Shown piece by piece: positions 4,764 to 63,115 of a stretch of 64,000 bases of DNA. The stretch comes from a virus. The notes below the pieces were generated by a model. That model was not told the DNA's origin. It was given only the letters and a program-made list of their open reading frames with translations, and made no database searches. The translations under genes were made by a program, and so were the position numbers. Positions within the stretch are counted from its first letter, which is position 1. Each line of letters opens with the position of its first letter. Where the stretch lies: positions 1 to 64,000 of the IMG/VR virus record IMGVR_UViG_3300047316_000072; one strand, 5' to 3'.

Positions 4764-4972
4764 CTATGAAAGCGACACTGAGACTTGAAGGCGTCACGAA
4801 GGGCGCTGTGAGGTACCAGGAGATCGACAGCAACGGCAACGATCTGAAGATGTTCGATCCGAACACCTTGATCGGAACGCAGTATCTCCGTCAAGGGAAG
4901 TTCAAGAATCTGCGTGACCACTCGACGGGAGAATGGCCGCAGAAGATCATCGTTACTGTCACCACAGAGTAA
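4760..4972 (+). CDS. Hypothetical protein, 70 aa
   Basis: GTG at 4760 overlaps the previous stop and has AGAAGGA 8 bases upstream; an ATG two codons later is the alternative. The sequence suggests a small beta protein (ATLRLEGVTKGAVRYQEID, KIIVTVTTE). Single-domain proteins of this type are common in phages and remain unassigned here. Confidence 0.6.
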   Translation: MTMKATLRLEGVTKGAVRYQEIDSNGNDLKMFDPNTLIGTQYLRQGKFKNLRDHSTGEWPQKIIVTVTTE

Positions 4973-4988
4973 GGAGTAACAACCAACA

Positions 4989-5210
4989 ATGCCTCAATAC
5001 TGGATCTCATTGGAGCCCGAAGAACTCGAAGCACTCAAGACCCTCGTGGAGAAGAAGCTGAAAGGGTGGATGGTAGAGCCCAAAGACAAAGACAAAGAAG
5101 CAGAACTGGCAAATCTGACAAGACAACCCAGGATGCCACAAGTGAGGGACTACGAGGTCTTTGATCGGATCGCCTATGCTCTCCAACAGGTTCAAATAGT
5201 ACAGGAGTAA
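4989..5210 (+). CDS. Small paralogous protein A, 73 aa
   Basis: Begins MPQYWISLEPEELEALKTL and ends in an FDRIAYALQQ helix. It shares start, helix placement and tail with the next gene (MPxYxIxL, then a leucine-rich helix and a YExxxRIxxAL segment), so the two are a tandem duplication. Function unknown. Confidence 0.65.
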   Translation: MPQYWISLEPEELEALKTLVEKKLKGWMVEPKDKDKEAELANLTRQPRMPQVRDYEVFDRIAYALQQVQIVQE

Positions 5211-5218
5211 CAGCACAA

Positions 5219-5467
5219 ATGCCAAAGTACGTCATCCTCCTTACTGCGAAGGACTTCAACGAGCTCCGCGCCTTGACTGACGAGAAGTACGAGGAGCTGA
5301 GCAACGAGGTCAATGAGGCAGAAGACGAAAGTGCTACAGGGACGTCGATGGAATCAGAGGCCGACCCTGATACGGTGGAGCAGTGTGAGGCCTACGAGCG
5401 CATAACCGACGCGCTGAGTAACGCACAAGTGCTCGACGAGCCGGAGACTGAGAAGACAGAAGAGTAA
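5219..5467 (+). CDS. Small paralogous protein B, 82 aa
   Basis: Begins MPKYVILLTAKDFNELRAL and ends in YERITDALSNAQ. It is the paralogue of the preceding gene with a longer acidic middle and tail. It is the last gene before the hairpin at 5486. Confidence 0.65.
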   Translation: MPKYVILLTAKDFNELRALTDEKYEELSNEVNEAEDESATGTSMESEADPDTVEQCEAYERITDALSNAQVLDEPETEKTEE

Positions 5468-5485
5468 CCGGATCAAACTATGATT

Positions 5486-5522
5486 GGGAGGAAGCAGATT
5501 GCGGAAGTCCGCTTCCTCCCTC
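5486..5522 (+). terminator. Hairpin terminator
   Basis: GGGAGGAAGC (5486-5495) pairs with GCTTCCTCCC (5511-5520), a perfect 10-bp stem with a 15-nt loop. The T run is short. It closes the P3 operon; the gene at 5585 would then depend on readthrough or on a start I did not identify. Confidence 0.65.
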
Positions 5523-5584
5523 TCCGGATCGCGGTCGCGCGATACTTCATTCCCAACCCCCGTAAAAGGGAGAACTAGAACCTA

Positions 5585-5830
5585 ATGGCAAAGAACAATC
5601 GAATCATGGGCGATGACATCGCTCGAATGCCGCCTCATATCCAAGCCTCGATCGCTGCACAGCTTGCATCTCAGGGAAGTGCACTCCCTCCAGCTCGCAA
5701 AGCAGTCAGAGTCCCTAAGGGAGAAGTCCACAAGGTCGAACTGAGTCGATCAACCTACATAGCGTTTGGATCCATTACGGCAGGGCTATGGATACTGGCA
5801 GGCATAATGTGGATGATGTATCCGTATTAG
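5585..5830 (+). CDS. Small single-pass membrane protein, 81 aa
   Basis: The first 57 residues are soluble and basic in part (RKAVRVPKGEVHKVELSR). Residues about 58-79 form one strong transmembrane helix (FGSITAGLWILAGIMWMM) that runs to the C-terminus, so the protein is probably tail-anchored with its N-terminus in the cytoplasm. Its role is unknown; it sits alone between a terminator and promoter P4. Confidence 0.6.
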   Translation: MAKNNRIMGDDIARMPPHIQASIAAQLASQGSALPPARKAVRVPKGEVHKVELSRSTYIAFGSITAGLWILAGIMWMMYPY

Positions 5831-5852
5831 ACAGAACACAGCAAAAGAATTT

Positions 5853-5907
5853 TATGGTCGCCCCTCATTTGGACTCTTGATTGACATTATGACCATATAG
5901 TATAATA
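5853..5907 (+). promoter_or_regulatory. Early promoter P4 (family member)
   Basis: TATAAT lies at 5901-5906 and TTGATT at 5877-5882 (18-bp spacer). The upstream box reads GGTCGCCCCTCATTTGGAC. It drives 5953 to 7373 and possibly the PEP-CTERM gene at 7404. Confidence 0.8.
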
Positions 5908-5952
5908 GAAAGAAAATACCAACCTCACATAACCAACAACGACGGGGGACTT

Positions 5953-6183
5953 ATGACTAAGGACTTCCGCTTCGTGGTCACACTAACAGATTGTCATGAT
6001 CATATCATGCGAGGAGACGTTAAGACCAAGATGGAAACACTTCTACAAGCCTTTACCAAGAAGCATTGCGTCAGCGTCAAGGTTAGTCGATACAACCCAA
6101 GTAGCGAGCAGCGAAAGGGTAAGGCAATGCAGAAGTTGGCTCAAGATGTTCTGAACAACAAAGTCAACAAAGGAGGTAAGTGA
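5953..6183 (+). CDS. Hypothetical basic protein, 76 aa
   Basis: First gene after promoter P4, with GGGGGA just upstream of the ATG. The N-terminus is beta-like (DFRFVVTLTDC), the C-terminus basic and helical. No family is recognised. Confidence 0.6.
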   Translation: MTKDFRFVVTLTDCHDHIMRGDVKTKMETLLQAFTKKHCVSVKVSRYNPSSEQRKGKAMQKLAQDVLNNKVNKGGK

Positions 6184-7403: not shown

Positions 7404-8162
7404 ATGAGACACAACATCCTGATGGCCACAACGGCTATCACACTGGCGGCGACACTGGGATTAAGTACCCCAGCGAGTGCCGATATCGTCTTCCAACTAG
7501 GGAACCATCCGCAGCAGCCAAGCGAAGAGAACATTCTCTTCACCAATGGTGAGAGCGGCCTTACGTTGACGGACGGTCAAGTGGACCACACCGGTGCGTC
7601 GGTACTCTTTACCACGCTGGGAAGCCCATTACAGGTCCTCGCGCAAGCGAGCGGCGGTCAGGCCAAGATTGAGTGCTTGGCTAACTGCGTTGATAACAAC
7701 CCAATCCACAATCCTGACGACAACCAGCTAAGCTCGATCTCGATGCGTGCTGGTACGTTGAATGGTGCAGCAACAGCTTGGACTGACGCCATCATCGACT
7801 TGACTAACGGTGTTGGTACGGCTCTTGTAACAGTGACGGATAACTTCGGTAACCCGTTCACTTACAGTCTGGGTAATGGCTCGAACTTCCTAACTATGGT
7901 AGCAGTACCAGGGTCAGGCGAGGTGATTACTCGGATCGACGTGACGAACGCCAATCCAGGGCAAGCATTCGGCTTCACGCAGTTTGATCAACCGCGCGTT
8001 TCCGGGCTGTGCACTCTGGTTGGTGCTACTTGCACTACGGTTCCAGTTCCGGAACCTACTGGGTTGCTGATCCTGACAACTTCCGCTCTGGGTCTCCTGT
8101 GGGCGAAGAAGAAGGGTCGCAAGGTCTGCAAGCGTGAAATGACGACCGTAACCGTCGGCTAG
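7404..8162 (+). CDS. Secreted PEP-CTERM protein 1
   Basis: The product has 252 residues. Residues 1-27 form a classical signal peptide (basic MRHN, hydrophobic core, TPASADI cleavage region). The middle is Gly/Asn/Thr-rich and beta-like, with two cysteine pairs (CLANC, CTLVGATC). At residue 216 a PEP motif is followed by a hydrophobic helix and a basic stretch AKKKGRK, which is the tripartite PEP-CTERM sorting signal recognised by exosortases. The tail is longer than usual (about 12 residues after the basic stretch). The protein would be exported and processed by host enzymes and placed on the cell surface. It starts with the same MRHN leader as the next gene. I know no function; surface modification or superinfection exclusion is only inference. 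Confidence 0.75.
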   Translation: MRHNILMATTAITLAATLGLSTPASADIVFQLGNHPQQPSEENILFTNGESGLTLTDGQVDHTGASVLFTTLGSPLQVLAQASGGQAKIECLANCVDNNPIHNPDDNQLSSISMRAGTLNGAATAWTDAIIDLTNGVGTALVTVTDNFGNPFTYSLGNGSNFLTMVAVPGSGEVITRIDVTNANPGQAFGFTQFDQPRVSGLCTLVGATCTTVPVPEPTGLLILTTSALGLLWAKKKGRKVCKREMTTVTVG

Positions 8163-8174
8163 CGCTTACAGGGT

Positions 8175-8206
8175 GGGTGGGGAGAGTCTCCCAGATCTCC
8201 CCACCC
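8175..8206 (+). terminator. Strong hairpin between the two PEP-CTERM genes
   Basis: GGGTGGGGAGA (8175-8185) pairs with TCTCCCCACCC (8196-8206), a perfect 11-bp stem with a 10-nt loop. No T run follows, so it may be a terminator, an RNA-stability element or a way of lowering expression of the second gene. Confidence 0.6.
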
Positions 8207-8256
8207 ATCACTACTCTGACGTGCCTATCAACAGCCACAACACAAAGGCAACTACC

Positions 8257-8925
8257 ATGAGACACAACACTCTGCTGGCAGCAACCGCTCTGGCAGGACT
8301 ACTGAGCCTCACTCCCCTACTCACGGCCAACGCTGCCCTGATCACAGGGTTCTCTCAGGAGCCTACGTCAAACACCGTCACAGCGACGGACAACGGGACG
8401 ACTACCACAATCAGCTACAGCAACGTCCTGACTACGCTCGGCGGCGGTATCTTGGGTAGCATCCCAGGGGCGGTGATGAGCTTGACCGCGACCTCGATCG
8501 ATGCGGCGACCTTGATCGCGGGCAACATCATCCAGCACTACAGTGGCACCTTCTGCATCAGCAGCGTCGCTAGCTGCGGCGGGAACTTCCTCTCTGGGAC
8601 GTTCACGGACGCAGCGTTTGGTGGCAACGGCGGACCTGGCCTGACGGTTAATGTCAACAACCCGCCAGAAAGCTTGACGATGACGAGTAATGTTCTTGCA
8701 GCGAGTGTCTTGATCCCACCGAACTCGTTCAGCCTCGGTTTCAGCAACGTGACTCCGACGCTGCACATCGACGGGACGACCATTGGTGCCTTCACTGCTA
8801 GCTACTCGGGCACGGTATCGTCCGAGGCCGCAGCGGTGCCAGAGCCTATGACCTTGGCCCTTATGGGCGTCGGTCTTCTGGGGCTGACTATGGTCAAGAC
8901 CTTCAGCGGCAAGAAGCAGAGCTAG
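8257..8925 (+). CDS. Secreted PEP-CTERM protein 2
   Basis: The ATG at 8257 (AAAGGCAACTACC upstream) gives 222 residues; it is preferred because the signal peptide then begins exactly as in the first PEP-CTERM protein (MRHNTLLAATALAGLL). Signal cleavage is expected after ANA near residue 26. The body is Gly/Ser/Thr-rich and beta-like with one cysteine pair (CISSVASC). The last 28 residues are PEP, a hydrophobic helix (LALMGVGLLGLTMV) and a basic end (GKKQS), a textbook PEP-CTERM signal. The two genes share leader and sorting signal but little of the body, as expected of different cargo on one export route. Confidence 0.8.
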   Translation: MRHNTLLAATALAGLLSLTPLLTANAALITGFSQEPTSNTVTATDNGTTTTISYSNVLTTLGGGILGSIPGAVMSLTATSIDAATLIAGNIIQHYSGTFCISSVASCGGNFLSGTFTDAAFGGNGGPGLTVNVNNPPESLTMTSNVLAASVLIPPNSFSLGFSNVTPTLHIDGTTIGAFTASYSGTVSSEAAAVPEPMTLALMGVGLLGLTMVKTFSGKKQS

Positions 8926-8941
8926 TCTAACCAGTTAACTC

Positions 8942-9011
8942 AGGGGTACGCATCGTGCAAACTCACAACTACAACCTGCCAACTGTGAGTGGTTCGTACC
9001 CCTCTTTTTCT
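8942..9011 (+). terminator. Long hairpin terminator with T run
   Basis: AGGGGTACG (8942-8950) pairs with CGTACCCCT (8995-9003), and a second stem ACTCACA/TGTGAGT lies inside the loop. CTTTTTCTT follows. It ends the PEP-CTERM unit just before promoter P5. Confidence 0.75.
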
Positions 9012-9066
9012 TATGGTCGACCCTCATTTTGACACTTGATGACCCCAATGCCCTTATGCTATAATA
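9012..9066 (+). promoter_or_regulatory. Early promoter P5 (family member)
   Basis: TATAAT lies at 9060-9065 and TTGATG at 9036-9041 (18-bp spacer). The box GGTCGACCCTCATTTTGAC lies upstream, with a perfect GGTCGACC palindrome. It drives 9100-9905. Confidence 0.8.
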
Positions 9067-17061: not shown

Positions 17062-17298
17062 ATGGAGCCGGGCAGAAAGGAATTTAGCGTGTGCCAGTTC
17101 TTCGAGGATGGCAGCTACGAGTACATCATCAGGTTCACCGACGCAAAGGTTGCAATGAACAAGGCTGTCGACTATACTACTAACGTTGCAGCTAAGGTCG
17201 GGATCACCAAGCGGGTCATCATCACTGACGGTGGTGACTGCATTTGCTTTGAATGGAAGCACGGCGAGGGGGTTACATTCCCTCAGGAGGCAGCTTAA
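17062..17298 (+). CDS. Hypothetical protein, 78 aa
   Basis: AGAGGAGACAATC precedes the ATG. The product alternates strands and one helix (FSVCQFFEDGSYEYIIRF, VAMNKAVDYTTNVAAK) and contains three cysteines without a zinc pattern. First gene after promoter P9; the next starts two bases after its stop. Confidence 0.6.
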   Translation: MEPGRKEFSVCQFFEDGSYEYIIRFTDAKVAMNKAVDYTTNVAAKVGITKRVIITDGGDCICFEWKHGEGVTFPQEAA

Positions 17299-17300
17299 CA

Positions 17301-18596
17301 ATGCTCAAGTACGGATGCCCATTCTGCGGGGAGATCGCAGGTCTAAAGTCTACATCCACCTACGTACAGTGTAGGAGATGTGGGGCTGTAGGTCCTTACA
17401 TCACAGCGTCCACAGAACCCGTTGAGATGTGGAACCAAAGGAAGGCACTAGACGACATCCTGATTAGGATGTCAAGGGATGAACTGCTAGCAGCCCAAGG
17501 TGCATACAGGAGAGTGGATGGTCTGGTAGAGGGAGCCAAGAGAACTGAATTCTGTATCGTTGTTCCTTGCACAGCTCTGAAGACAGAGTTGCCTAACCTA
17601 GAGGTAACCCTCTCTGCAATGAAGCCGCTACCGCAGGACGACCTGCAGAAGGAATGGCTCACTCGTATCTCAGATGAGCCTGCCAGAGTGTCAGCACGTA
17701 ATATGTACTCAGGGCGATCAGTCAGGATCCTAGCTCCACTGGCGATGTCTAACGATGCCGAGATGTATATCGTCTCGACAGGCGTAGGGCTAACGCCAGC
17801 AGATCAACCCATTCCTGCATACGACCTCACACTGCATCGGGATGATGACTCAAGCCTCTACAGGAAGATTATTGGTCCAATCAACCCACGTAAGTGGTGG
17901 AAGGGAATGCAAGAGTCTCCGTTCAACCTTCCTCTGAGCAAGATTGTTCAGGACGAGAAAGGCATTATTGTCCTAGCGCTGACAGACGATTTCGTGGACA
18001 TGCTGTATGACGATCTGCTAGAGATCAGCCTAATGGGTCCAGAGGTAACGAACAGACTGAGGATCTTTACCATTGGGCTGCTCCCTGAAGGTCTGCAAAA
18101 GTGTATCCTCCCTTACACAGAGACAGGCACTAAGAACCTTCTCAGATCAGGATCTCGTCTGGACTTCCTGTATCGGATAGCCTACCACTATATCTCCAAC
18201 AGGCTGCTACACAGTGAAGTAGATCCTCAGGATCTGGAAAGTTGCGTTGCTTGGGTTAAGGCGATAACTCCCGGCGATTCACCTGACTCCCCCACACAAA
18301 TGACACCAGGAGTCAGGAGAGGGCCAGGAAGGCCTCCAGGTAGCGGACGGAAGCTTCCTCAGTACGCAGACCCCGAAGGAAGGGAAGAGGGGGAAATGGG
18401 GATCAGAAACTACCCCTCTGGAGCAGGAAGACCTCTAGTCTTTGGTGACGATCAAATCCTGAACATGATCAAGGAAAAGGGCCTTGCTCGGGTAGCAGTT
18501 GTCACAGGTCTGCACTCGCTCAGAGAGCAGGGTATCTCGTGCTCCAATGCTAGGTACACCAGGCTTGTTGATATTGCCAGGAGAGACTTCAACTGA
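17301..18596 (+). CDS. Lar-type zinc finger joined to a DUF6884/YaaA-like domain
   Basis: The ATG at 17301 is chosen (CAGGAGGCAGC upstream); an ATG at 17253 would overlap the previous gene. Residues 5-40 match the Lar restriction-alleviation zinc finger: CPFCGE, CRRCGAVGP and EPVEMWNQR. Residues about 80-210 resemble DUF6884/YaaA-like proteins: IVVPCTALK, then ARNMYSGR, YIVSTGVGL and IPAYDLTL, in the right order. Near residue 350 an AT-hook-like RRGPGRPPGSGRK is followed by a C-terminal region with a repeat GAGRPLVFGD. The domain calls are from memory of family patterns. The mix of DNA binding and anti-restriction features suggests a role in DNA modification or protection. Confidence 0.55.
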   Translation: MLKYGCPFCGEIAGLKSTSTYVQCRRCGAVGPYITASTEPVEMWNQRKALDDILIRMSRDELLAAQGAYRRVDGLVEGAKRTEFCIVVPCTALKTELPNLEVTLSAMKPLPQDDLQKEWLTRISDEPARVSARNMYSGRSVRILAPLAMSNDAEMYIVSTGVGLTPADQPIPAYDLTLHRDDDSSLYRKIIGPINPRKWWKGMQESPFNLPLSKIVQDEKGIIVLALTDDFVDMLYDDLLEISLMGPEVTNRLRIFTIGLLPEGLQKCILPYTETGTKNLLRSGSRLDFLYRIAYHYISNRLLHSEVDPQDLESCVAWVKAITPGDSPDSPTQMTPGVRRGPGRPPGSGRKLPQYADPEGREEGEMGIRNYPSGAGRPLVFGDDQILNMIKEKGLARVAVVTGLHSLREQGISCSNARYTRLVDIARRDFN

Positions 18597-34375: not shown

Positions 34376-35893
34376 CTACGCAATTACAGTGGGACCGAAC
34401 TGGACTGCGTCTACAGCTGCAGTGGTCCACGGAGCGCTTGTATTTGGGTCATTCAAGTAGTTGGCTGCTGACCAGTTCCAGCCGGTTGTAAGAGTAATTG
34501 TTGGAGCAGCTACCGTAGTGGCACCGCTCTTGAGCTGTGTAGCAGCCTGTCTGAATCCAGCATCTGACTTCTGCATGTAAGATCTGACTGTCACAGCAAT
34601 CACTGACGAGGGCGGAGTCACTCCACTCAGAGGCGAGAGGCCGTAGAAGTCTGCATGACCTACAGTACTGTCGTACACGTATGTAGTCAAGGCGGTCTGA
34701 GGAGCATCACTAACAAGGAATGCATTCAGAGGTACCACGTTGCAGAACAAGTAAGTCCACCCAGTACGAGGTGTTACTGCAGCTGCACCTGCAGCAGAGG
34801 AGGGGAAGCTTCCAGTATAGGTCTGTGCTAACGTATACATGCCTGCAGAGACAGTATTAGGCCCTTGTAGAGCCATTGCAACGTCACTATTCAGAGCAGC
34901 ATAGTAGGAGCCTCCTCTAGTTAGAACAGGAGGCGTGGCGAAAGTGTATACGACATTACCTGCAAGGGGATTGGTTACAGCAGTAGCTGTACCGTTAGTG
35001 ACCAGATTACCTGGTGCTCCTCCAGTTCCCGTAGAATCGTAGATCGCCATGTTTGCATGGCCTGTCACATTGCTATTTATGCTGTTGACCAGAGATAATA
35101 TAGCTCCCGTGGTGTTAGTTGGACATGTGAAAGGAACGAAGAGGATGGTATTGATCGTTGTAGCTGGGACAACACCAGACACTCCGTTAAGTATGACCTG
35201 AACGGATGACTGACCTCTGGAGAACTGAACTGTCTGATCAATAGTAGGCATCCGAGTGTAGCATCGTACATCACCAATCCAGGGTACGCTGGTAGGATCT
35301 GATCGCCATAGGAAATCGTCGATGAAGAAGTTGCTTACAAAAGCTCCTGCTCCAAGAGCTATCCTGTTAGCGTAGTTGTTTGCGCTGCCCGCTCTGGTGT
35401 TCAAGCCTGTAGCGCTAAAACTGTTGCTGGGACTGCCGTTAGCCCTGACTATAAAGCTCCCTGTCGTATTATTGATCACTACCTCGATCTCATAGGAGTA
35501 CCAAGCACTAGGAGCTGTGAAAGCTCCTGTATAAGTGGCCAGTACAGTACCTCCAGCTGCTCCCGAACACAAGGTGATAGCCCCGTCAGTTCGGAACTGT
35601 ACGGTGCATTGAACAGCTGCAACGTCGCTAATCTGGATGATGAAACCATTTGTTGAACCGCTTACGGTAGCGGTCTGCATGTAGGCTACATTAAAGTGAT
35701 GGACAGCATCATTAGCGCCCGAGCTCTTGTACAGTCCGGCTCCCGTACCACCGCCTGATGCTAGAGACTGGCCAACTCCAAATCTGCTAGCTGCGTTCTG
35801 GTTGAAGTTGTTGCTTATCAGGTTGCCGTCCCAGTAGCCCTGAGCATCTGCATCATCGTTGTACAGATCAAAGCCGTCTCCAAATACTTGCAT
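34376..35893 (-). CDS. Adhesin-like virion protein, paralogue 1, 505 aa
   Basis: Begins MQVFGDGFDLYNDDADAQGY and has a LamG-like first half (VHHFNVAYM, CTVQFRTDGAITLCSG, GSFIVRANG, FFIDDFLWRSD) ending VPWVGDVRCYTRMP; a second beta domain contains NMAIYDSTGTGGAPGNLVTN. It is closely similar to the next gene and more distantly to the one at 44138, so a three-copy family of exposed tail proteins is present. It likely binds carbohydrate on the host surface, which is inference. Confidence 0.65.
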   Translation of the reverse strand: MQVFGDGFDLYNDDADAQGYWDGNLISNNFNQNAASRFGVGQSLASGGGTGAGLYKSSGANDAVHHFNVAYMQTATVSGSTNGFIIQISDVAAVQCTVQFRTDGAITLCSGAAGGTVLATYTGAFTAPSAWYSYEIEVVINNTTGSFIVRANGSPSNSFSATGLNTRAGSANNYANRIALGAGAFVSNFFIDDFLWRSDPTSVPWIGDVRCYTRMPTIDQTVQFSRGQSSVQVILNGVSGVVPATTINTILFVPFTCPTNTTGAILSLVNSINSNVTGHANMAIYDSTGTGGAPGNLVTNGTATAVTNPLAGNVVYTFATPPVLTRGGSYYAALNSDVAMALQGPNTVSAGMYTLAQTYTGSFPSSAAGAAAVTPRTGWTYLFCNVVPLNAFLVSDAPQTALTTYVYDSTVGHADFYGLSPLSGVTPPSSVIAVTVRSYMQKSDAGFRQAATQLKSGATTVAAPTITLTTGWNWSAANYLNDPNTSAPWTTAAVDAVQFGPTVIA

Positions 35894-35908: not shown

Positions 35909-37414
35909 TCAGGCTACAACTGTTGGGCCTACTTGTAAGTTATTGACTGCAGTAGGAGTCCATGCTGTGCTGGTGGCAGGATCAACAGTGTCAGTCCTCC
36001 ACACCCACTGCCATCCGTTAGTGAGGTTAAGTGAAGGGGTGGCTACTGTGGTACTGCCGCTTTTCATCTGGATCGCTCCCTGCCTAAACCCTGCATCGCT
36101 CTTCTGCATGAACCCTCTGACTGTAACGCAGATAGTACTTGTAGGCGTAATAGAGATAGCGCCTATACTATAGAAGTCTGAGTCACCCACGTTGTTATCA
36201 TATACGTAGGTTGTGGCACCGTCCTGATGGGCTTCAGATACCAGCGAAGCGTTCATAGGAACTGCCGAGATGTAGATGCTGGTGTAGCCGATCGGAGACC
36301 CTCCTATAACAGTAGCAGCAGATGCACTCGCAGGAAAAGCACCTGTGTACGTTTGGGCCAACTGATAGATAGGGTTTGCAGGAGGATTGTCTCCCATCCA
36401 GTTAGGACCAATATCTCCAGTCATTGCGGCGTAGTATCGGGTACCTGGAGTCAGAGTTGGAGGAGTAGCAAAGGTATACGTTCTGTACCCACCTCCTGGA
36501 TTGGTTAGAGCAGTTGCCGTACCATTAGTAAGAAGGTTGCCCGGAGCCCCTCCAGTACCTGTAGCATCGTAGATTGCCATGTTTATATGACCGGTCTGAG
36601 AAGTAAACGCTCTGCACTGAAAGTTCAGTAACGGCCCTGCTATGTTTAAAGGCGCTGTGAACGGAGAGAAGACAATGAGGTTAGCACCCGAGCCACCACT
36701 GTTCCCCTCTCCTGCACCTACGTTGTATGTGATTGCAGCAGGCGACTTGGAGAACTGGACTGTTACATCTTGGAAGGGCATCCTTGTGTAGCATCGGACA
36801 TCTCCTACCCACGGTACTGTTGCTGCATCTGAGCGCCACAGAAGGTCATCCATGTAGCACTGGTTAAAGTTCAGTCCACCAACCCATAGACGGTTGGCGT
36901 AGTTGTTCGCCGTACCTCCTCGTGTATTAAGGCCTCCTAAGGTGAAGTCGTTACTGGGATTGCCGTTCTTTCTGACCGTGAAGCTCCCAGTAGTGTTGTT
37001 GATCACCACTTCTATTTCAAAGGCGTACCACACGCTTGAGACAGTGAACGCGCCCGTATAGGTTGCTAAAATAGCTCCTCCCGGACCTCCGGTACATAAC
37101 AGGATTGCACCGTCAGTTCGGAACTCTACAGTACATTGAGCAGTGGCCCCGTCAGATAAAGTCAAGCATAGTGGGAGGGCTGCCCCTCCAATTCCTCCTG
37201 GAAGTAGGAATGACAGTACTAAGTGATGCACCGCATCATTGACGTTACTAGCCTTAGTAAGGACCGTACCGTTCAAGTTGTACACGTTCAGACCCTGACT
37301 GCCTGCAAAGCGACCCGCGACGAAACCTAGACCTCCGCCGGTATCCCAATAGCCCGCGAACTCATCGGCCGCAGCTGTGTATACATCAAAACCGTCACCA
37401 AAGGTCCAGGCCAT
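35909..37414 (-). CDS. Adhesin-like virion protein, paralogue 2, 501 aa
   Basis: Begins MAWTFGDGFDVYTAAADEFA and follows the architecture of its neighbour: LamG-like half, the WVGDVRCYTRMP junction, and a beta domain with NMAIYDATGTGGAPGNLLTN. The ends also match (NNLQVGPTVVA versus DAVQFGPTVIA). It arose by duplication, with substitutions spread along the length. Role as above. Confidence 0.65.
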   Translation of the reverse strand: MAWTFGDGFDVYTAAADEFAGYWDTGGGLGFVAGRFAGSQGLNVYNLNGTVLTKASNVNDAVHHLVLSFLLPGGIGGAALPLCLTLSDGATAQCTVEFRTDGAILLCTGGPGGAILATYTGAFTVSSVWYAFEIEVVINNTTGSFTVRKNGNPSNDFTLGGLNTRGGTANNYANRLWVGGLNFNQCYMDDLLWRSDAATVPWVGDVRCYTRMPFQDVTVQFSKSPAAITYNVGAGEGNSGGSGANLIVFSPFTAPLNIAGPLLNFQCRAFTSQTGHINMAIYDATGTGGAPGNLLTNGTATALTNPGGGYRTYTFATPPTLTPGTRYYAAMTGDIGPNWMGDNPPANPIYQLAQTYTGAFPASASAATVIGGSPIGYTSIYISAVPMNASLVSEAHQDGATTYVYDNNVGDSDFYSIGAISITPTSTICVTVRGFMQKSDAGFRQGAIQMKSGSTTVATPSLNLTNGWQWVWRTDTVDPATSTAWTPTAVNNLQVGPTVVA

Positions 37415-44137: not shown

Positions 44138-45694
44138 TCACGTCTCCAGCTTGTAACCTATCTTGATGTTGTTGGCGCCTGACACAGTCCAATTACTTCC
44201 TGTGTCAGGATCGAGTATATAGATGTCTGACGTGTAGAACCAGCTGGAGTTCAGAGTGAACACAGTACCTGCAGCGTCTGTTGCCCCGCTCCTAAGATGC
44301 TGAGTCATTGTATGTGGGTTGGCATCGTCCTTCTTGTACGCTCCAATCACCTGAATGCCGATGATGTTCAGAGTACTTGGAATAGTGGAGTCACAATTGA
44401 ACAGATCCTCTTGCCCTGGAGTGATCGACGTGTTGTATGTCATGTCCCCATCAAAGACTACTTCATTCACGTTCTGAGCGTTCATCGTGGAGATCATACC
44501 GATGCCGGGACTTCCAATCCCGTTATACGCACCACCTCCTGCTGCCGATGCTGGGAAAGACCCTGTGTATGCAACACCAAACTGCTCAGCTGCTCTAACG
44601 TAGCTTACGTCACCAAAGCCTCCCAGAGATACACCCACGTCAGAATGAATAGCCGTCCAGTATACAGTACCTTTAACGATTGTCATCCCACTAATAGGTA
44701 TGTATAAGTCTCCAGCAGTAGGATTCACTACTTCCGTCCCTTGGACTAGTAAGTTATCAGGGTTGCCTCCCGAGTCAGTGTAAAGAGCCGCGTTTATTCG
44801 AGCTATAGTATCTGTCATCACAAACACGTGGATGCTTGTAAGGGTACCAGTATGTGCAGCTCTCATCGCGACATAGTTAATGACGTGGCTGCTCCCTCCT
44901 CCAGGTCCCCAGCTGCCTCCTGGAATGTATGGAGTGGCATAGTCAAAGTAGGGCATGTGAGGATTGGTCCACTGGACCGAAAAGTCAGATGACGGGTACA
45001 ACGTTAGAGCTCGGGTGTCTCCTACCCATGAATTATTAGCGTAAGCACCTGGGTCTGAATCTGTAGTGCTATTGACGTGGAGATCGTCGATCGTCGCATA
45101 CCCTCCAGCTATGATAAACCTGTTGAATGACATAGCTGCAGGAGGAGTCGATGGAGGGTTTCCTGGATCGTGGAAGTTACCCGGAACGTCGATCATGCCT
45201 AGTATGGGCTGGTTGTTGATCCTGACGGAGACCTTACCGCCGCCTGCAGCCGATCCTACCGTAACCATGATCTCTAAGTAGAACCATGAATTGGAGGCAA
45301 AGATTCCATTGACGGTGGAAGCTACTATGTGGTTCTGGTAGTCGGCAATGTAAATCTGGCCGCTCCCACCTGTGAACCCTACAGTAGCTACGTTTCTTGG
45401 ATTGGTAGGGTTACTAAAGGTATCCTGAAACTGTACTGACAGGTCTGTACTCACGCCCGTGTCCAGCTTTGCCGCGAAGCCTACTACTCCTCCAGCAAGG
45501 TTCACATTGACATGACCGTAAAGGGATGCAATGCTCGACAAGTACAGAGCCTGCCCGTAATTGAATCTGGTGTCAGTACCATCCACGAAGTTGCTAAAGC
45601 TGAAGCCTCCTGACCACTTCAGTCTCCCCTCGCGGAGGAGCATATCGTCAATGCTACCATAATGGTCAAAGCTTTCAAAGCAGATAAGGCTCAT
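44138..45694 (-). CDS. Adhesin-like virion protein, paralogue 3, 518 aa
   Basis: Begins MSLICFESFDHYGSIDDMLL and repeats the plan of the two adhesin paralogues in more diverged form: a LamG-like first half, WVGDTRALTLYP, and a beta domain with INAALYTDSGGNPDNLLVQG. The end (WTVSGANNIKIGYKLET) matches their ends too. It sits right after the tape measure protein, an unusual place for an adhesin. Its stop TGAC is preceded by GGAG, and the next reading frame opens without a normal start. Confidence 0.6.
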   Translation of the reverse strand: MSLICFESFDHYGSIDDMLLREGRLKWSGGFSFSNFVDGTDTRFNYGQALYLSSIASLYGHVNVNLAGGVVGFAAKLDTGVSTDLSVQFQDTFSNPTNPRNVATVGFTGGSGQIYIADYQNHIVASTVNGIFASNSWFYLEIMVTVGSAAGGGKVSVRINNQPILGMIDVPGNFHDPGNPPSTPPAAMSFNRFIIAGGYATIDDLHVNSTTDSDPGAYANNSWVGDTRALTLYPSSDFSVQWTNPHMPYFDYATPYIPGGSWGPGGGSSHVINYVAMRAAHTGTLTSIHVFVMTDTIARINAALYTDSGGNPDNLLVQGTEVVNPTAGDLYIPISGMTIVKGTVYWTAIHSDVGVSLGGFGDVSYVRAAEQFGVAYTGSFPASAAGGGAYNGIGSPGIGMISTMNAQNVNEVVFDGDMTYNTSITPGQEDLFNCDSTIPSTLNIIGIQVIGAYKKDDANPHTMTQHLRSGATDAAGTVFTLNSSWFYTSDIYILDPDTGSNWTVSGANNIKIGYKLET

Positions 45695-62291: not shown

Positions 62292-62882
62292 TTACGCAGG
62301 CTTTGGAGTAGCCTCAGTAGGTGGAACACGCTCCGGCACCTCCACCGTAAACGTCACACGTTGGCCCTGATAGTAGACCACCAAGTGTGCTTTGCCGTCT
62401 GCTCCTGGTACGATAGCCTCAGGCGGAATGACGATTGGCGGTGTGGGACGTGGATCGTTCGGACCCCACATGCCGAGAGGCGGCCCGCCAGGAGCAATCG
62501 GATGAGACGGGAACGGAGGCAGCCCCTGGTCCGGGTAGATCGGGAGAACGATTGGATGCGTTGGCACTCCCGGAGCCACTGCATCCGGCGGGATCACGAT
62601 AGGATGACTGGGGTAGACTGGCAGGTAGATCGGGTGAGTTGGTACACCAGGAGCCAGACCATCCGGCGGAATCACGATTGGATGGGATGGATACACCGGG
62701 AGGAAGATCGGATGTGTCGGTACACCCGGCGCAATCGCATCAGGTGGGATCACGATCGGGTTCGTTGGTCTCGGGTCACCAGGGCCCCAGATACCCAGCG
62801 GGGGCTGAGGTACGGGCAGAGTGTTATCGGGGTGCTCGCCACCACCGGTACCAGTGATCCAGTGAATGTATGCTAGAGGCAT
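62292..62882 (-). CDS. Proline-rich tandem-repeat protein, 196 aa
   Basis: The ATG at 62882 (AAGGAG upstream) starts MPLAYIHWITGTGGGEHPDN; an earlier in-frame ATG at 62945 has no site. Three 26-residue repeats of the type HPIVIPPDAxAPGVPTHPIF follow, then related Pro-rich segments (PNDPRPTPPIVIPPEAIVPG). The C-terminus is a small beta part (AHLVVYYQGQRVTFTVEVPE). It may form an extended stalk or a virion-bound linker. No family is recognised. Confidence 0.6.
   Translation of the reverse strand: MPLAYIHWITGTGGGEHPDNTLPVPQPPLGIWGPGDPRPTNPIVIPPDAIAPGVPTHPIFLPVYPSHPIVIPPDGLAPGVPTHPIYLPVYPSHPIVIPPDAVAPGVPTHPIVLPIYPDQGLPPFPSHPIAPGGPPLGMWGPNDPRPTPPIVIPPEAIVPGADGKAHLVVYYQGQRVTFTVEVPERVPPTEATPKPA
62529..62762 (-). 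repeat. Three tandem 78-bp repeats
   Basis: The repeat encodes HPIVIPPDxxAPGVPTHPI followed by FLPVYPS and its variants three times in a row. Units differ by several silent and coding changes, so they are old or under selection for the peptide. Confidence 0.75.
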
Positions 62883-62896
62883 GTCGGCTCCTTTGG

Positions 62897-63115
62897 TTAG
62901 CTGTTGCCTAGATTGCGTACGATTAACCCGCCTGTCGGGTCGCAAACTAGATCTTCCAGGTTTTCACTGAACTGTTCGAACTCACGTAAGCTCAGCGGTC
63001 GTCCGTCCTTGAAGGCCTCTCTCATTGCATGCCAGGCCTTCAATCCAGTGATGTTGCCTCCCAGTGCTGCGTCAACCACAATCACAACCTGCTCAGTAGT
63101 GACGCAACCATGCAT
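62897..63115 (-). CDS. Hypothetical protein, 72 aa
   Basis: The ATG at 63115 has AGGGA eight bases upstream; an in-frame ATG at 63136 lacks a site and overlaps the terminase end. The product starts MHGCVTTEQVVIVVDAALGG and is helical in the middle. Function unknown. Confidence 0.55.
   Translation of the reverse strand: MHGCVTTEQVVIVVDAALGGNITGLKAWHAMREAFKDGRPLSLREFEQFSENLEDLVCDPTGGLIVRNLGNS

Follow-up and report, generated by a model that had tools for sequence, protein, structure and literature searches.

So far, exosortase sorting has been viewed as a trait of cells that form biofilms and flocs. The PEP-CTERM/exosortase (EpsH/Xrt) system was reportedly set out for Gram-negative bacteria by Haft and colleagues in 2006 (BMC Biol 4:29). 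In this bacterial system a signal peptide is combined with a C-terminal PEP motif, a hydrophobic helix and a basic end, and unrelated protein bodies share the tail, an arrangement that is also found in the two phage genes analysed here, A and B. The phage locus differs from the bacterial system in that the substrates are encoded by the phage, with no exosortase scoring over the cut-off in the phage records, and in that the bodies of A and B have neither an NCBIfam PEP-CTERM match nor a cellular relative that we could find. The same tail type and secretion logic are seen in PepA of floc-forming bacteria (NF033554; PMC9850573). Protein B, however, is not a member of this family (30.9 bits; cut-off 80), and once the signal peptides and tails were removed the A and B bodies matched none of the NCBIfam PEP-CTERM families, PepA included.

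Phage morons and superinfection-exclusion envelope proteins likewise represent accessory genes swapped among phages, with products located at the host envelope; unlike them, the A/B pair lies in a phage in which no lysogeny module was found. We know of no moron or superinfection-exclusion protein that uses exosortase sorting. Proteins of the TIGR03118 family are named in one sentence on genes acquired by viruses of Yellowstone hot springs (PMC11003980). Like A and B these are virus-encoded and have a putative C-terminal exosortase signal, although they belong to another family, and that sentence speaks neither of a cassette or pairing nor of shuffling or a tail-class pattern. Apart from it, the open-licence literature yielded no description of phage PEP-CTERM proteins, in agreement with the first-pass annotation, which had known of no described phage system using PEP-CTERM sorting; such an absence is not proof.

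Two adjacent phage genes with exosortase-type tails

The DNA analysed (the window, 64,000 nucleotides) comes from a 69,982-bp virus record of a tailed phage with genes for TerL, portal, tail, polymerase and ligase. The plus strand of this phage encodes a ligase, a helicase, an exonuclease, a Sak4-like protein and a DNA polymerase, after which come structural genes on the minus strand (tail, head protease, portal) and a large terminase. A and B sit consecutively among small genes of the early region, well away from the opposite-strand structural block. The features of the locus are as follows.

7404-8162, plus strand: gene A, a 252-aa predicted secreted protein with a PEP-CTERM tail (ORF; TIGR02595 19.8 bits in a six-frame search; body relatives in L003, G037 and G045)
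7404-7481, plus strand: signal peptide of A, MRHNILMATTAITLAATLGLSTPASA (from the sequence; leader common to protein Y of the sister phage G037, z 7.9)
8046-8159, plus strand: PEP-CTERM tail of A, VPEPTGLLILTTSALGLLWAKKKGRKVCKREMTTVTVG (TIGR02595; close match to the tail of protein X in G037, the body of which is unrelated, z 23)
8170-8212, plus strand: strong RNA hairpin between A and B, without a U-run (-30.5 kcal/mol, z -4.55)
8257-8925, plus strand: gene B, a 222-aa predicted secreted protein with a PEP-CTERM tail (ORF; TIGR02595 23.3 bits; relatives in 55 viral contigs; family alignment)
8257-8334, plus strand: signal peptide of B, MRHNTLLAATALAGLLSLTPLLTANA (from the sequence; signal peptide scored in all complete family members)
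8836-8922, plus strand: PEP-CTERM tail of B, VPEPMTLALMGVGLLGLTMVKTFSGKKQS (TIGR02595; AlphaFold2 helix 198-216; tail in 34 of 35 distinct relatives)
8942-9013, plus strand: terminator-like hairpin with a U-rich run 3' of B (-23.6 kcal/mol, z -3.55; missed by a simple consensus scan)

In both proteins a basic n-region and a hydrophobic stretch lead up to an A-x-A site (ASA|D in A, ANA|A in B), and the C-terminus consists of the PEP motif, then a hydrophobic segment and basic residues. Signal peptides were called by n-region charge, hydropathy and AxA criteria, which A, B and all complete family members satisfied. For B the start is most likely the ATG at 8257, since the family leaders align there, the GTG at 8173 being less likely. 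The earlier description of two adjacent genes with a signal peptide and a tripartite PEP-CTERM tail was borne out, as both ORFs are real and both exceeded the TIGR02595 cut-off of 16 when the phage record was searched in six frames. The other domain scores were more divided: in the whole-protein hmmscan B passed TIGR02595 (17.5), while A scored 15.5, 0.5 under the cut-off, which makes A borderline under this model, and neither reached the PF07589 gathering score of 20.7 (A, 16.3; B, 20.2, a narrow miss). The PF07589 miss reflects the score threshold and not a structural feature, and membership is claimed only through TIGR02595 and the architecture. No other named PEP-CTERM family gave A or B a score above its own cut-off. 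The tail of A runs on past the basic cluster in an odd extension that calls for caution, yet the same extension is present in the X tail of the sister phage.

As the first-pass annotation had also noted, the bodies of A and B are unlike each other (z 0.1), and an A/B profile alignment covers the tail only, ruling out a pair of diverged duplicates. Two of the 106 ORFs in the window combine a signal peptide with such a tail, and these are A and B, whereas a shuffled-tail control gave none among 2,021 ORFs. The AlphaFold2 model of B (mean pLDDT 75) comprises a beta-rich, barrel-like domain followed by a C-terminal helix (residues 198-216). B had no sequence relative among solved structures, and as its best structural match reached a Z of 9.0, with none outstanding, we read no function from the fold. 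The confidence of the fold predicted for A was too low for use.

The unit had been described as closed by terminators. This applies to its end, where a hairpin is followed by a U-rich run; the hairpin between A and B is the stronger of the two, but with no U-run after it, it cannot clearly be called a terminator. Inverted repeats of different sequence were also seen between and after the gene pair of the sister phage, one of them at the same intergenic place; folding energies were computed for the inverted repeats of the window only.

Elsewhere in the window we observed a 447-aa protein (17253-18596) with an N-terminal stretch resembling Lar restriction alleviation proteins, under the Pfam cut-off; three phrog_2448 paralogues, function unassigned, in the structural block (34376-35893, 35909-37414 and 44138-45694); and a proline-rich repeat protein (62292-62945; NPIVIPPDAIAPGVPTHPI) that belongs to no Pfam family and is matched in G001, G003 and G037. 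In other phages, PEP-CTERM genes have similar proline-rich proteins in their vicinity. When the portal, polymerase and tail protein are compared, the closest cultured phages are ones that infect Brevundimonas; because TerL points elsewhere, we do not claim this genus as the host.

Exchange of bodies and tails among related phages

Relatives of this phage were recovered by a portal-based search, and none by a search with a primase-like protein. The closest near-complete relative, the sister phage G037 (67,273 bp), is collinear with this phage along its whole length and has a 127-bp terminal direct repeat, indicating that it is probably complete and that the locus therefore lies inside a probably complete phage genome. 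Since the sister phage holds the pair within this collinear genome with terminal repeats, we rule out host DNA mis-binned as virus.

At the locus of A and B the sister phage has two PEP-CTERM genes, X followed by Y, the two-gene locus thus being kept in place in both phages while its parts have been exchanged. The body of X is unrelated to those of A and B, and its tail is that of A, odd extension included (z 23). Y has a body of the A type (~35% identical, z 28) with an MRHN leader and a B-like tail (z 15). In a more distant relative, G039, the site is empty, without PEP-CTERM genes. The contig L003 encodes an A body mostly identical to that of this phage, but with another leader and another tail, and flanked by two other PEP-CTERM genes. 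An otherwise different phage with different structural genes, G045, has an A-family and a B-family gene adjacent in the reverse order, so the two families can travel together. Taken at the level of sequence, A and B are best read as a mobile cassette of phage proteins whose bodies are shuffled.

The same comparisons bear on the proposal that the pair, lying behind a repressor-like gene, is moron or lysogenic-conversion cargo. The idea of movable cargo stands. Lysogenic conversion is unsupported, because no tyrosine integrase or resolvase (PF00589, PF00239) was found in this phage (G000), G037, G039 or G045 and because no homologue of the repressor-like HTH gene was detected in the sister phage, though the PEP-CTERM pair is kept there; a mode of lysogeny other than these may nevertheless apply. 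Among the tested B-family records, G002 was the only one with an integrase.

The B family is widespread among viruses

Relatives of B were found in 55 viral contigs of otherwise different gene content, presumably from soil and rhizosphere samples, as we take it from the IMG sample numbers, and these B-family phages have almost nothing else in common with this phage. Their neighbouring genes encode terminase, portals from two different families, major head protein, endolysin and helicase-primase; in several phages the B-family gene is near the terminase genes, and its genome position varies between phages. In the alignment of 35 distinct B members, with an overall identity to B of 44-67%, the tail is kept in 34, with the xEP motif, helix and basic end present in every member except L023, the sole tail-less one, and with the E and P of the motif nearly invariant. 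Of 17 B-family phage records, 14 had tails passing TIGR02595, as did all 16 further viral records. The dN/dS values (~0.24 for the body and ~0.37 for the tail), which are rough as synonymous sites are near saturation, point to visible purifying selection on the B family.

Several features of individual contigs were also recorded. In L023 (9998-10567), L024 and L028 the B-family allele stops straight after the body (SASAVPGR, then stop) and has no sorting tail, being in effect a natural secreted, untethered version. In L006, L025, L029, L039, L042 and L047 the first P of the motif is swapped (GEP, AEP, NEP, SEP, KEP, TEP) and EP is retained. Further PEP-CTERM families occur in other viral contigs, often in tandem, and in L114 a transposase-like gene (phrog_4285; 4963-5979) directly follows a tandem pair of the PEPxxWA type, a possible movement route. 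A right-handed beta-helix protein adjoins or lies near PEP-CTERM genes in several different phages (L041:11587-12801, L102:4337-5485, L037:8612-9634, L040:11504-12499, L010:10846-11616 and L143:2244-3509), with PF13229 over its cut-off in L041 and L102 and the others alike in sequence.

Outside these viral contigs, two pattern scans of 84,980 genomes gave no cellular relative of A or B, with the limit that such scans require short near-exact peptides and could miss distant relatives. A tblastn search of 50,697 cultured-phage records found no relative of A or B; two further phage PEP-CTERM proteins likewise had none among cultured phages, and no relative of B was found among plasmids.

One tail class per phage

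Some of the phage tails are of the PEPxxWA type, which NCBIfam keeps as a separate sorting signal, and score above the cut-off of that model. The tail subclass (PEPxxW/Y or not) was uniform within all 23 contigs that hold two or three PEP-CTERM genes, a uniformity reached in 0 of 20,000 label shuffles; the test is generous in that some of the contigs are related, and the bodies within one contig mostly differ. The simple reading of this pattern is that the host enzyme dictates the tail. As none of 36 phage records gave an exosortase hit over the cut-off, the host would have to supply the enzyme. Together with the shuffled-tail control and the exchange of parts in the sister phage, the uniform tail class rules out a chance match.

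Proposed function and alternative explanations

The reading that we prefer, with a probability of roughly two in three, is that A and B are phage-made substrates of a predicted host exosortase, delivered to the envelope or surface of the infected cell, which they may alter. Anatomy, conservation, mobility, body exchange between conserved leaders and tails, and the uniform tail class are apparent from the sequences themselves; against this reading we counted the PF07589 misses, the tail-less allele of L023, L024 and L028, and the xEP tails. During infection the proteins would leave the cytoplasm through the general secretory pathway and be retained in the inner membrane by means of the tail helix; the host exosortase would then cut them at the PEP motif, after which they would pass to the outer surface or the extracellular matrix. 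There they might, with less certainty, mask or block receptors against competing phages, or change the matrix or aggregation. In Aquincola, pepA overexpression rescued flocs, indicating that a lone PEP-CTERM protein can change aggregation (PMC9850573), a precedent that makes an effect on the matrix plausible.

A signal peptide and a C-terminal helix would also give the topology expected if the tails were ordinary membrane anchors and the proteins remained in the inner membrane, where they might, for instance, aid lysis or block injection, the PEP match being incidental, and the members with GEP, AEP, NEP, SEP, KEP or TEP could be taken in this sense. The nearly invariant E and P of the motif speak against it, as do tails that fit known sorting subclasses (PEPxxWA over its cut-off in other phages) and are uniform per phage, and we consider simple anchoring unlikely. 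Also rather unlikely is that the proteins are decoys with which the phage floods the host exosortase, leaving host PEP-CTERM matrix and adhesion proteins unsorted, so that the matrix is loosened and release or spread helped. Several different bodies per phage with one tail class, and bodies that appear exchangeable, would suit such a role; purifying selection, however, is stronger on the bodies than on the tails, and unrelated phages carry the A body family together with the B body family, which weakens a pure decoy reading, since a conserved body would be needless for a decoy.

The first-pass annotation had also considered a particle-associated protein, and a gene that is near the terminase genes in several phages could encode virion proteins that assemble at the envelope or cross it. 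This suggestion is unsupported: the same family occurs in phages with different portals, terminases and genome positions, here the genes are in the early small-gene region far from the opposite-strand structural block, and they are absent from the matching place in the related G039, making a virion role very improbable. We see equally little chance that A and B are passenger host genes with no phage role. PEP-CTERM proteins belong to cells, and phages do acquire host genes, but the scans of 84,980 genomes gave no cellular relative, the family is under apparent purifying selection, and the two-gene locus stays put in this phage and its sister.

Returning to the exosortase-substrate reading, the swapping of bodies while tails stay suggests that these viruses use the host sorting machinery to repaint infected cells, and surface decoration or a block to superinfection is the most likely function that we infer. 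Body shuffling fits an arms race, for instance one in which other phages are blocked, and may represent diversification against a changing set of targets. More tentatively, and with somewhat less than even odds in our estimate, the cassette could be a diversifying phage surface display, in which the leader is fixed, the exosortase tail is matched to the host and the bodies between them are interchangeable, the proteins being delivered by the host's sorting enzyme to the infected cell surface to counter rival phages.

If the tails are matched to the sorting class, a widespread cassette of this kind would show that phages exploit the exosortase pathway. The tail class would then hint, from sequence, at the exosortase type that the host of an uncultured phage possesses, and the phage cassette would offer natural substrates with which the roles of PEP-CTERM proteins at the surface may be tested.
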